Assembly (NCBI GenBank): GCA_947173495.1
Contig: CAMWFQ010000004.1
Location: 124,001-188,000 of the forward strand
DNA: 64,000 bases
Source: an uncultured Lachnospiraceae bacterium
Lineage (GTDB): Bacteria > Bacillota > Clostridia > Lachnospirales > Lachnospiraceae
Reading direction: 5' to 3'
The notes under the pieces were generated by a model. That model did no database searches and had not been told where the DNA came from. It worked only from the letters and a program-made list of their open reading frames with translations. Made by a program: the position numbers and the translations under genes. Below are positions 2,586 to 59,211 of the stretch, in pieces; position 1 is the first letter of the stretch; each line of letters starts with the position of its first letter.

Positions 2586-2624
2586 ATAAGACAGAATGAT
2601 GGAAAGCATTTTGTCTTATTTTTT
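2586..2624 (+). terminator. Rho-independent terminator of the oxidoreductase gene
   Basis: A 13-bp stem (2586-2598 with 2607-2619, one G-U pair) closes an 8-nt loop and ends in a run of six T. The dispersed repeat starts 3 nt after this T-run. Confidence 0.9.
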
Positions 2625-2626
2625 AT

Positions 2627-2712
2627 GCGCAGGCCCGCACAGGGGAATATGCCGCTAAAGCGGCGTGCGGGCCGCGCGGCGAGTAGGGAGAAAAAACCTT
2701 CCCTACTCGATT
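2627..2712 (+). repeat. Dispersed two-hairpin repeat, unit A1
   Basis: The outer stem is GCGCAGGCCCGCAC with GTGCGGGCCGCGC; the inner hairpin is GCCGCTAAAGCGGC; the second hairpin is GAGTAGGGA with TCCCTACTC, followed by GATT. It begins 3 nt after a terminator T-run. See the findings for the family. Confidence 0.85.
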
Positions 2713-2812
2713 GCGCAGGGGCGCACAGATGAAATTGTTGCTTACGCAACGTGCGGGCCGTGCGGCGAGCAGGGAGAAAATCTGCCCTGCGCGAAAGTGT
2801 TTCCGACTCGAT
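2713..2812 (+). repeat. Dispersed two-hairpin repeat, unit A2 (mosaic)
   Basis: It abuts unit A1 head to tail. The left outer arm (GCGCAGGGGCGCAC) is of the GGGGC type but the right arm (GTGCGGGCCGTGC) is of the GGCCC type, so the outer stem pairs only in part. The inner hairpin is GTTGCTTACGCAAC. The second hairpin is shifted to GCAGGG with CCCTGC. This looks like a recombinant of two unit types. Confidence 0.75.
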
Positions 2813-2832
2813 TATCAGGAGAAGTTTGAGAG

Positions 2833-12107: not shown

Positions 12108-12148
12108 GAAGTTTTTATGGACAGTATTTCTTACATACCCGGATAAAA

Positions 12149-12175
12149 AGATCTGCTTTGGGCAGGTCTTTTTTT
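12149..12175 (+). terminator. Terminator of the MATE exporter gene
   Basis: An 8-bp stem (AGATCTGC with GCAGGTCT, one G-U pair) is followed by seven T. The repeat locus B begins 3 nt later. The 359-nt gap to the next gene holds this terminator, two repeat units and the GntR promoter. Confidence 0.9.
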
Positions 12176-12177
12176 AT

Positions 12178-12263
12178 GCGCAGGGGCGCACAGATGAAAT
12201 TGTTGCTTACGCAACGTGCGCCCTGCGCGCGAGTAGGGGAAGATAGCTCTCCCCTACTCAATT
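12178..12263 (+). repeat. Dispersed two-hairpin repeat, unit B1
   Basis: The outer stem is GCGCAGGGGCGCAC with GTGCGCCCTGCGC; the inner hairpin is GTTGCTTACGCAAC; the second hairpin is GAGTAGGGG with CCCCTACTC. It starts 3 nt after a terminator T-run. Confidence 0.85.
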
Positions 12264-12352
12264 GCACACGGGCACCCAGAGGAAAAATGTCAGCAGAAGC
12301 TGACGGGTGCCCGGTGCGCGAGTAGGGAGAAAAAGCCTCCTCCGCTTGATTT
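12264..12352 (+). repeat. Dispersed two-hairpin repeat, unit B2 (divergent)
   Basis: The outer stem is now CGGGCACCC with GGGTGCCCG and the inner hairpin GTCAGCAGAAGCTGAC: both differ from B1 in sequence but keep pairing. The second hairpin has decayed (GAGTAGGGAG against CTCCTCCGCTT). Confidence 0.75.
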
Positions 12353-33090: not shown

Positions 33091-33126
33091 GAGCGGGTCA
33101 GAAACTTTGTTTCTGCTCGCTCTTTT
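33091..33126 (+). terminator. Terminator before repeat locus C
   Basis: GAGCG pairs with CGCTC and CAGAAAC with GTTTCTG around a TTT loop, with a small internal bulge, followed by TTTT. The 488-nt gap from 32983 to 33470 holds this terminator, three repeat units, a possible promoter (TTGCAA at 33000, TAGAAT at 33023) and a palindrome before the peptidase gene. Confidence 0.75.
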
Positions 33127-33128
33127 AT

Positions 33129-33209
33129 GTGCAGGGGCGCACAGATGAAATTGTTGCTTACGCAACGTGCGCCCCGCACGCGAGCAGGGAAAAAGTTCCC
33201 TGCTCGATT
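33129..33209 (+). repeat. Dispersed two-hairpin repeat, unit C1
   Basis: This is the cleanest copy. The outer stem GTGCAGGGGCGCAC pairs with GTGCGCCCCGCAC (33167-33179) with one bulged A; the inner hairpin is GTTGCTTACGCAAC; the second hairpin is a perfect 11-bp stem CGAGCAGGGAA with TTCCCTGCTCG around AAAG, followed by ATT. Confidence 0.9.
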
Positions 33210-33294
33210 GTGCATACCTTTACGGAGGAATATGCCGCTAAAGCGGCGCATGGGGCGCACAGCGAGCAGGGAGAAAAAGCATCCCTGCTCGATT
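33210..33294 (+). repeat. Dispersed two-hairpin repeat, unit C2
   Basis: The inner hairpin is GCCGCTAAAGCGGC and the second hairpin CGAGCAGGGA with TCCCTGCTCG. The left outer arm has decayed while the right arm GCATGGGGCGCAC matches that of unit F2. Confidence 0.8.
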
Positions 33295-33383
33295 GTACAG
33301 AGGCGCATAGATGAAATTGTTGCTTACGCAACGTGCGCCCCGCACGCGAGCAGGGAGAAAATCTTCCCTCTTACTCGATTTTT
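33295..33383 (+). repeat. Dispersed two-hairpin repeat, unit C3
   Basis: The inner hairpin is GTTGCTTACGCAAC and the right outer arm GTGCGCCCCGCAC; the left outer arm has a few changes (GTACAGAGGCGCAT). The second hairpin carries a small insertion in its 3' arm. It ends in GATTTTT. Confidence 0.8.
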
Positions 33384-33470
33384 CAGAACAGATAGGATAT
33401 ACTAAATATCAATTAAATACTGGGGCATGTTTCAAACATGCTTCGGGGAAATGTGAAGGGTGAAACATAT

Positions 33471-36398: not shown

Positions 36399-36472
36399 CA
36401 ACTATTCCATAAATCCGGGAAGCTGAAACGTATCTGTAAATAAGGGAAACTTTAAATTTACCGCTTTCTTAT

Positions 36473-36559
36473 GTGCAGGGGCGCACAGGGAGATTTACTG
36501 CTGACGCAGTATGCGCCCCGCACGGCGAGTAGGGAGAAAAAAGCCTTCCCTGCTCGATT
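36473..36559 (+). repeat. Dispersed two-hairpin repeat, unit D (single)
   Basis: The outer stem is GTGCAGGGGCGCA with TGCGCCCCGCAC; the inner hairpin TACTGCTGACGCAGTA differs from all others yet pairs perfectly; the second hairpin is CGAGTAGGGA with TCCCTGCTCG, where T faces G as a wobble intermediate between the two forms seen elsewhere. Confidence 0.85.
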
Positions 36560-57807: not shown

Positions 57808-57838
57808 GGCCCTCATGCAAATCATTTGTATGAGGGCT
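57808..57838 (+). terminator. Hairpin after the decarboxylase operon
   Basis: GCCCTCATGCAAAT pairs with ATTTGTATGAGGGC (one G-U pair) in a long stem. The following sequence is TCTCATC rather than a T-run. The repeat locus E begins 9 nt later. Confidence 0.6.
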
Positions 57839-57846
57839 CTCATCAT

Positions 57847-57934
57847 GCGCAGGCCCGCATAAGGAAATTTGCTGCTGAAGCAAGCATGCGGGCCGCGCGG
57901 CGAGTAGGGGAAGATAAATCTTCCCTACTCGATT
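57847..57934 (+). repeat. Dispersed two-hairpin repeat, unit E1
   Basis: The outer stem is GCGCAGGCCCGCAT with ATGCGGGCCGCGC, so C-G to T-A change at the tip is matched on both sides relative to unit A1. The inner hairpin is TTGCT/AGCAA. The second hairpin CGAGTAGGG/CCCTACTCG is lengthened by AAGAT/ATCTT. Confidence 0.85.
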
Positions 57935-57948
57935 TAAATAAGACTTTT

Positions 57949-58042
57949 GCAGGCAGGTCCGCACCATAAATGCGGGGAAGTTTGCTGCTGAAGCAGCATG
58001 CGGGCTGTGCGCGGGCAGAGGGAAAAGTCTTCGCTGCCCGAT
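57949..58042 (+). repeat. Dispersed two-hairpin repeat, unit E2 (divergent)
   Basis: The inner hairpin is GCTGCTGAAGCAGC. The second hairpin is now CGGGCAG with CTGCCCG, several bases different from the CGAGTAGGG form but still fully paired. The outer stem keeps GTCCGCAC against GTGCGCGGGC only in part. Confidence 0.7.
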
Positions 58043-58063
58043 AAATGGATCAGGAGGATTTAA

Positions 58064-59002: not shown

Positions 59003-59021
59003 ACAGTAGAATTTATGAAAT

Positions 59022-59057
59022 GGCAGGTAACAGTGAGAAGCGTTACTTGCCATTTTT
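59022..59057 (+). terminator. Terminator of the NYN-LOTUS gene
   Basis: GGCAGGTAAC pairs with GTTACTTGCC (one G-U pair) around a short loop, followed by ATTTTT. The repeat locus F starts 2 nt later. Confidence 0.85.
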
Positions 59058-59059
59058 AT

Positions 59060-59123
59060 GCGCAGGGGCGCACAGATGAAGTGCCCCGCGCACGAGTAGG
59101 GAGAAAACCTTCCCTACTCGATT
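59060..59123 (+). repeat. Dispersed two-hairpin repeat, unit F1 (short form)
   Basis: The inner hairpin is missing: only 7 nt (AGATGAA) separate the outer arms GCGCAGGGGCGCAC and GTGCCCCGCGC. The second hairpin CGAGTAGGGA/TCCCTACTCG is intact. Confidence 0.8.
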
Positions 59124-59211
59124 GCGCAGCCCCATGCAGAGAAAGTATGCCGCTAAAGCGGCGCATGGGGCGCACAGCGAGTAGTGGAGAAGTACATTCC
59201 CCTACTCTATT
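59124..59211 (+). repeat. Dispersed two-hairpin repeat, unit F2
   Basis: The outer stem is GCAGCCCCATGC with GCATGGGGCGC, a further paired variant; the inner hairpin is GCCGCTAAAGCGGC; the second hairpin GAGTAG.GG/CCCCTACTC carries a small change. Its end overlaps the stop of the XRE regulator gene on the other strand. Confidence 0.8.

Follow-up and report, generated by a model that had tools for sequence, protein, structure and literature searches.

REPs measure 20-40 bp, carry an unpaired GTAG/CGTC tag and for the most part form HH/TT dimers (available text of PMC3733652 and PMC6006769). They are dispersed intergenic palindromes whose subfamilies differ by matched stem changes (available text of PMC3733652), and in the definition of the GTAG type the unpaired GTAG or GTGG lies 0-2 nt 5' of the stem (PMC6006769, accessible sections). 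The bcr1-bcr18 sequences of the Bacillus cereus group are short mobile repeats tied to TTTAT, with bcr1 present in up to 130 copies per genome (PMC6542083, accessible sections). Elements of the IS200/IS605 type insert 3' of a T-rich pentanucleotide (TTGAT, ATTAT or TTTAT) with specificity on the 5' side only; they cause no target duplication and carry subterminal palindromes (PMC4227781, in the part available). Group IIC introns insert at intrinsic terminators (PMC4424553, likewise in part), and the MRSC-65-2 motif is a high-copy, structured mobile-repeat candidate with covariation (available text of PMC11109978).

Here we describe a repeat family from an uncultured Lachnospiraceae bacterium, found in a stretch of 64,000 nucleotides (the window) that is part of a 4.58 Mb draft genome (52 contigs, 97.4% complete). 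The units are similar to REP/BIME sequences in being dispersed intergenic palindromes with subfamilies that differ by matched stem changes, but they are 85 nt long, contain two hairpins and are arranged head to tail, and no RAYT gene was seen flanked by them. The tag is also different, since the 5' end of a unit is GYGC within a stem with a bulged A, and GTAG is located in stem 2, where many units have GCAG. The likeness to bcr lies in short length, apparently mobile character and the link to TTTAT. However, bcr sequences are 100-400 bp long and belong to the B. cereus group, whereas the present units are ~85 nt, a separation made by description, and the available text of PMC6542083 contains nothing on terminator targeting or on polarised head-to-tail arrays. 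MRSC-65-2 consists of a single long stem and is found in diverse phyla, whereas the present units have two hairpins. An Rfam search (cmscan above the gathering score) of the window and 11 related loci matched only tRNA, in line with an earlier note on this DNA, which knew of no named family with such a layout. Searches of open-access PMC papers, some of them directed at related systems, yielded no description of this repeat family, and the accessible portions of PMC12306157 and PMC1590033 contain none.

Units of the window and their fold

Each locus was read and folded, and the twelve units that had been reported at six loci are all present (Table 1). All twelve are on the + strand, with lengths of 64-101 nt. 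An intact unit of ~85 nt consists of hairpin 1 followed by hairpin 2 (GCGAGTAGGG..CCCTACTCGATT). Hairpin 1 contains, in order, GYGC, a bulged A, a 9-bp stem, a purine-rich GGAA internal loop, an inner hairpin and the closing strand; the purine-rich bulge has 9-10 nt on the 5' side only, and the inner hairpin has a tetraloop. The general layout thus stands as first described, but the outer stem is longer, continuing through GYGC / GYRC around the bulged A. The stems named previously are present in the folds, as is the series of T-A, T-G and C-G pairs in hairpin 2. The architecture does not hold in every copy, the exceptions being A2, C2, E2 and F1 as listed in Table 1; in A2, the mismatched hybrid outer stem sets GGGGCGCAC against GTGCGGGCC. 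The junction of array E reads CATCAT. A covariance model (R1) was built from nine of the twelve window units, with A2, E2 and F1 left out, and its scores therefore favour units like these.

Table 1 Units of the repeat family in the window and the sequences directly upstream of each array
Feature	Position	Strand	Basis
Terminator hairpin and T-tract ending TTTAT, target of array A	2588..2626	+	sequence
Unit A1, two hairpins, GATT end	2627..2712	+	fold; R1 104.1 bits (training member)
Unit A2, outer stem a mismatched hybrid, hairpin 2 disrupted	2713..2813	+	fold; R1 68.4 bits over 2713-2796
Terminator and TTTTTTTAT, target of array B	12145..12177	+	sequence
Unit B1	12178..12263	+	fold; R1 training member
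Unit B2, GGGCACCC/GGGTGCCC subtype	12264..12351	+	fold; R1 training member
Terminator and CTCTTTTAT, target of array C	33091..33128	+	sequence; array-free in relatives
Unit C1	33129..33209	+	fold; R1 training member
Unit C2, outer stem with a broken 5' arm	33210..33294	+	fold; R1 training member
Unit C3, stems weakened	33295..33380	+	fold; R1 training member
Weak hairpin and CTTTCTTAT upstream of unit D, no convincing terminator	36436..36472	+	sequence
Unit D	36473..36559	+	fold; R1 training member
Terminator-like hairpin, then CTCTCATCAT, target of array E	57810..57846	+	sequence; relatives
Unit E1	57847..57934	+	fold; R1 training member
Unit E2, degenerate	57949..58043	+	fold; R1 41.7 bits
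Terminator and CATTTTTAT, target of array F	59020..59059	+	sequence
Unit F1, inner hairpin lost	59060..59123	+	fold; R1 54.2 bits
Unit F2, CCCCATGC/GCATGGGG subtype	59124..59211	+	fold; R1 training member

Copy number, distribution and placement after terminators

The repeat occurs far beyond chance in its own genome. BLAST with array C identified 49 places, a 19-mer pattern for array starts (TTTWTGYGCAGGSSCGCAY) had 45 exact matches versus 0 for the reversed-pattern control, and the exact hairpin-2 pattern had 126 versus 0 (with at least three palindromic sites counted on both strands). With scoring limited to 150 candidates, R1 identified at least 153 matches in the genome. Across the window and the sequence retrieved around matches, 218 raw R1 matches reduced to 213 non-overlapping matches in 127 arrays, a figure that includes weak matches (E<=0.01), with 190 of the 218 raw matches reaching 40 bits by hand count. 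Another 18 stretches with the hairpin-2 pattern contained 29 more R1 matches, 14 of them above 60 bits, and all copy numbers for this genome are lower bounds. Seventy arrays consist of a single unit and 57 of two to six units, with neighbouring units abutting with zero gap at 71 of 86 junctions. The genome thus holds about 200 copies of this two-hairpin repeat, often head to tail and in one direction relative to the gene end before them. Hairpin 2 was also found alone in this genome (G000), as near-perfect palindromes AATCGAGCAGGG..CCCTGCTCGATT that were judged by eye to lie just after stop codons or in intergenic positions (L287, L289, L293, L297 and L298); at L286 and L289 a unit comes soon after the solo hairpin 2.

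Most arrays lie directly 3' of an intrinsic terminator, in one orientation and with a TTTAT-like junction. On reading, the 5' flanks of most arrays consist of a hairpin, a T-tract and AT, followed by the first unit. Among the 124 of 127 arrays with enough upstream sequence, the junction ends in AT in 101, in TTTAT in 69 and in TTGAT in four. A terminator, defined as a hairpin of -8 kcal/mol or lower with its foot 3-13 nt away and at least three T, was present upstream of 85 of these 124 arrays versus 39 of the 268 other TTTAT sites in the window that served as controls, and was absent by this rule from the remaining 39 arrays. The distance from hairpin foot to junction has a median of 7 nt and a range of 3-13 nt, which is the range that the rule allows. 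In the 123 arrays with enough sequence on both flanks, a same-strand terminator was found at the left end in 84 and at the mirror position of the right end in four, and no conserved right flank was seen by eye across arrays. Two arrays begin ~10 nt or less from the end of a tRNA gene, past a T-run (tRNA-Gly in L201 and tRNA-Ala in L222). In other genomes, TTTAT precedes 27 of 37 first-in-array units of the GATT type, and most of the rest follow another T-rich tail.

A second dispersed repeat, roughly AACATAAG-hairpin-GTTTGTT, was also noticed by eye at terminator tails, in some places with one of the present units immediately after it. It was seen in the flanks of L236 (position 964, - strand), L246, L244, L212, L194 and L290, in L348, and in the upstream regions of L009 and L012. 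A regular expression for this repeat returned one copy, the pattern being too strict.

Relatives without an array were found for array C and for arrays E and F. The clear case is the array C site in L016, where CTCTTTTAT is followed by a similar right flank with no units; at this single compared locus there is no target duplication, with at most one T within the T-run ambiguous. In L013 the same site reads CTCTTTTAAT with no units and a right flank that is less alike, while L010, L009 and L012 contain remnants or another repeat, as judged by eye. The surroundings of the gene that separates arrays E and F were compared in 18 close same-genus loci (L336-L353), none of which gave an R1 match at E<=0.1. 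The hairpin and T-run of the E site were kept in 14 of these, by eye, after what is apparently the same upstream gene, and in the other four the upstream gene is apparently different. At some loci, array-free relatives keep the terminator, which indicates that it is older than the array.

A gene at position 33438, used as a probe, has up to 78% identity in Lachnospiraceae genomes, with Parablautia as the nearest named genus. R1 was run only on genomes of the organism's own family and on fetched loci, and we infer that the comparison genomes are Lachnospiraceae. Such a search had been proposed in the earlier note, and it recovered the family in the source genome and in others: under stricter filters and with 14 candidates scored per genome, at least 52 of 299 family genomes have a match. 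In the same genus, with 120 candidates scored per genome, 23 of 37 genomes have matches and 14 have none, with 0 to at least 120 per genome. Among named loci around one gene, 2 of 80 have a match. In G004, an identical 90-nt unit follows three different terminators (L261, and L262 twice). The patchy bursts inside one genus fit mobility.

A variant in five genomes (G103, G011, G292, G110 and G015) carries a 5' hairpin of its own and is not located after a T-run. In four of the five, CTCCGCGAGGA precedes the unit, with a slightly different sequence in G015, and this variant may use another target. Its copies (L253-L260 and L266-L268) have the 5' hairpin, mostly CTCCGCGAGGAK, and then the unit with the bulged A, and several are near contig ends. 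In phage and plasmid collections, blastn found no match for unit C1 at E<=1e-5. Four pattern hits in viral contigs were read by eye. L371 contains a full unit preceded by a T-run, in L369 a degenerate unit comes after a tRNA-like end in which ARAGORN calls no tRNA, and L370 has a solo hairpin; L372 was discarded as a chance GC-rich match.

Covariation, array polarity and the object of selection

Covariation strongly backs the fold. In a structure-blind MAFFT alignment of 161 units from the source genome, 91% of cells are paired versus 82% after shuffling, and double changes number 548 versus 204. These units were taken from 214 distinct ones by length and an ATT or ATA ending, and this choice makes the set uninformative on how well the last three bases are conserved. 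When column pairs are ordered by corrected mutual information, stem pairs fill the first four ranks, and the top 15 comprise seven stem pairs, four that are one register off and four that involve loop columns. Subfamilies account for part of the covariation within this genome. For 40 distinct units from other genomes, 95.6% of cells are paired versus 75.5% after shuffling, 26 of 28 pairs change on both sides, and the covariation score is 0.563 versus 0.164 for shuffled and at most 0.086 for slid structures, in an alignment that was fitted to the model and so leans towards the structure. In these genomes the sequences of the outer stem and inner hairpin vary widely with pairing kept; hairpin 1 is conserved in shape and hairpin 2 largely in sequence. 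Selection on pairing, as proposed in the earlier note, is supported by both sets. That note had named an absence of covariation, or a match to an Rfam or transposon family, as grounds for abandoning the idea; covariation was found, and the searches made returned no such match. It had left open what is selected, and the surroundings of the units point to mobility.

Units within tandem arrays are not equivalent. The terminator-proximal unit has the best R1 score in 43 of 57 arrays versus 24.6 expected, and in 61 of 86 neighbouring pairs the score runs the same way, with the terminator-proximal unit higher. Because R1 scores favour units like those of the window, polarity was assessed again with two model-free measures. 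On the full set, the first unit has a closer counterpart elsewhere than the second does in 44 of 57 arrays (p 0.002), and its fold is the more stable of the two in 43 of 57 (p 1e-4). A filtered set of 49 of the 57 arrays, without two arrays cut by contig ends and without units outside 75-100 nt, among them truncated first units, gave 42 of 49 for closeness and 42 of 49 for stability; since this filter favours the polarity reading, the comparison was rerun with no rows dropped, with weaker p values. As a statistical trend, the terminator-proximal unit is the youngest-looking in tandem arrays, which suggests that a newcomer most likely goes in next to the T-tract, ahead of the older units, and that unit structure most likely decays with age.

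Growth polarised at one end, together with exact tandem junctions, is also reminiscent of an integron- or CRISPR-like array, in which a site-specific recombinase would use the terminator as its attachment site. However, there are ~127 separate arrays rather than one platform, most units have no cassettes or spacers between them, and no recombinase family was seen to recur among the ORFs within ~1 kb of arrays, and we consider this explanation highly improbable.

The units could instead be a structured RNA that functions in the host as a backup terminator, an mRNA 3'-end stabiliser or a binding site for an sRNA or protein, in which case the covariation would reflect that function. The strength of the covariation is consistent with this, as are the unpaired adenines conserved in the source genome (A5, which is bulged, in 98%, A15 in 95% and A20 in 94%) and the strand that units share with the upstream ORF, a co-directional ORF end being located within 200 nt of 88 of 123 arrays, a figure without a control. 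Yet the repeat is patchy in one genus, with no match in 14 of 37 genomes, orthologous terminators occur without arrays, second units are more decayed, and the units lie past the terminator, which means that they would be transcribed mainly by read-through. A host RNA is thus unlikely, although the first unit alone may carry a host function. Pairing is at its best in the units next to the terminator, which look the youngest, and poorer in those that follow, an indication that mobility, and not a host RNA, is most likely what selection acts on.

Candidate enzymes and the preferred reading

The features that the units share with IS200/IS605 elements and group A IStrons include the T-rich pentanucleotide (TTTAT or TTGAT at the junctions counted above) and one-sided specificity. 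They also have the subterminal hairpins of IS200/IS605 at both ends. As to target duplication, the comparison covers one locus (array C against L016), where none was seen apart from the one ambiguous T. They differ in that no Y1 gene was found in their own genome and no autonomous copy with these ends was found, in that hairpin 1 abuts the junction, and in their strong preference for terminators. No match to Y1_Tnp (PF01797) was found in the source genome, a draft of the completeness given above. Presence of Y1 does not track the repeat, and Y1/RAYT as a resident mobiliser showed no association with it: by hand count it is present in 27 of 52 unit-bearing genomes (at least 52 being unit-bearing) versus 147 of 247 other family genomes, and within the genus in two of five high-copy genomes (at least 24 matches, the source genome included), three of three low-copy genomes searched and seven of 14 zero-copy genomes. 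In draft genomes, R1 at E<=1 found nothing in 30 loci from 40 Y1 matches of 14 unit-bearing genomes, nor did R1 at 11 further same-genus Y1 loci, and a cognate RAYT gene flanked by the repeat was accordingly absent from the Y1 loci searched. A full-length Y1-encoding element with these ends was sought in the drafts and not found, and for this reason we do not file the units as IS200/IS605 members, though they behave like one. Among ORFs of at least 90 codons within ~1 kb of arrays, no mobile ORF was seen to recur, and those that did recur looked by eye like ordinary paralogues.

Another explanation is that the units are REP sequences of a RAYT (TnpA_REP) transposase that has since been lost from this genome. 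They are high-copy, intergenic and palindromic, with subfamilies that have alternative complementary stem residues as in REPs (PMC3733652, available text), and six unit-bearing genomes (G004, G015, G110, G291, G292 and G298) encode Y1 proteins of 235-279 aa that we take to be RAYT-like. Against this, none of the six loci carries the present units on inspection (four have other palindromes beside the gene and two none that are obvious), and GTAG is part of a stem instead of standing at an unpaired foot, so that we assign a low probability to a lost RAYT. In L314, L315, L325 and L317 (G292, G004, G110 and G015), RAYT-like Y1 genes of 245-279 aa have their own palindromes, which are unlike the present units.

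The source genome has two RVT_1 hits, which bear on retromobility of the group IIC intron kind, where a reverse transcriptase (RT) acting in trans would copy a structured RNA into DNA after terminators. Insertion of these introns at intrinsic terminator motifs (PMC4424553, available part) matches the target anatomy seen here. A 404-aa RT (L306, contig 12) has TIGR04416, a group II RT/maturase family, as its best NCBIfam hit, but at 83 bits it is under the cut-off of 300. Its neighbours are what we take to be an Avd-like ORF and a VR-like C-type lectin ORF, and from these it is presumably the RT of a diversity-generating retroelement (DGR). The second hit is in a 935-aa frame (L305, contig 5) whose fetched part matches Cas1, and the frame is probably an RT-Cas1 fusion. 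No RT was above the group II cut-off where tested, the 85-nt units have no ribozyme match, and Rfam found no intron in the window. A sequence of 85 nt is too short for a group II ribozyme. We therefore regard the two as different elements with the same target, and retromobility of this kind as rather improbable.

Our verdict is that the units are terminator-targeting non-autonomous repeats of the REP/bcr-like kind, and new as such. For how they move, we give an even chance to a reading in which ~85-nt non-autonomous mobile repeats insert after terminators by single-strand transfer of the IS200/IS605 type supplied in trans. The unit would fold as single-stranded DNA (or RNA) into hairpin 1 and hairpin 2, and an enzyme acting in trans would carry out a precise transfer that is specific on the 5' side alone, duplicates no target sequence and recognises the ends by their structure. 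Each new unit would enter between the T-tract and the older units, the covarying stems would be kept by the folding needed for movement, and resident copies would be mostly neutral and decaying. A more tentative possibility, which we think doubtful, is an undescribed class of insertion system that uses termination sites (hairpin and U-tract, or tRNA 3' ends) as attachment sites and adds units singly at the terminator end, giving time-ordered arrays, with an enzyme other than a recognisable Y1 or a group II intron RT.

If the verdict is true, the REP/bcr kind gains a large family from Lachnospiraceae-type gut bacteria, made up of mobile repeats that target terminators. Provided that the polarity holds, each array records the order of insertion, and the matched stem changes mark the needs of the enzyme, which would be mainly for shape in hairpin 1 and mainly for sequence in hairpin 2. 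Two-hairpin motifs after terminators can resemble regulatory RNAs and yet be mobile DNA.
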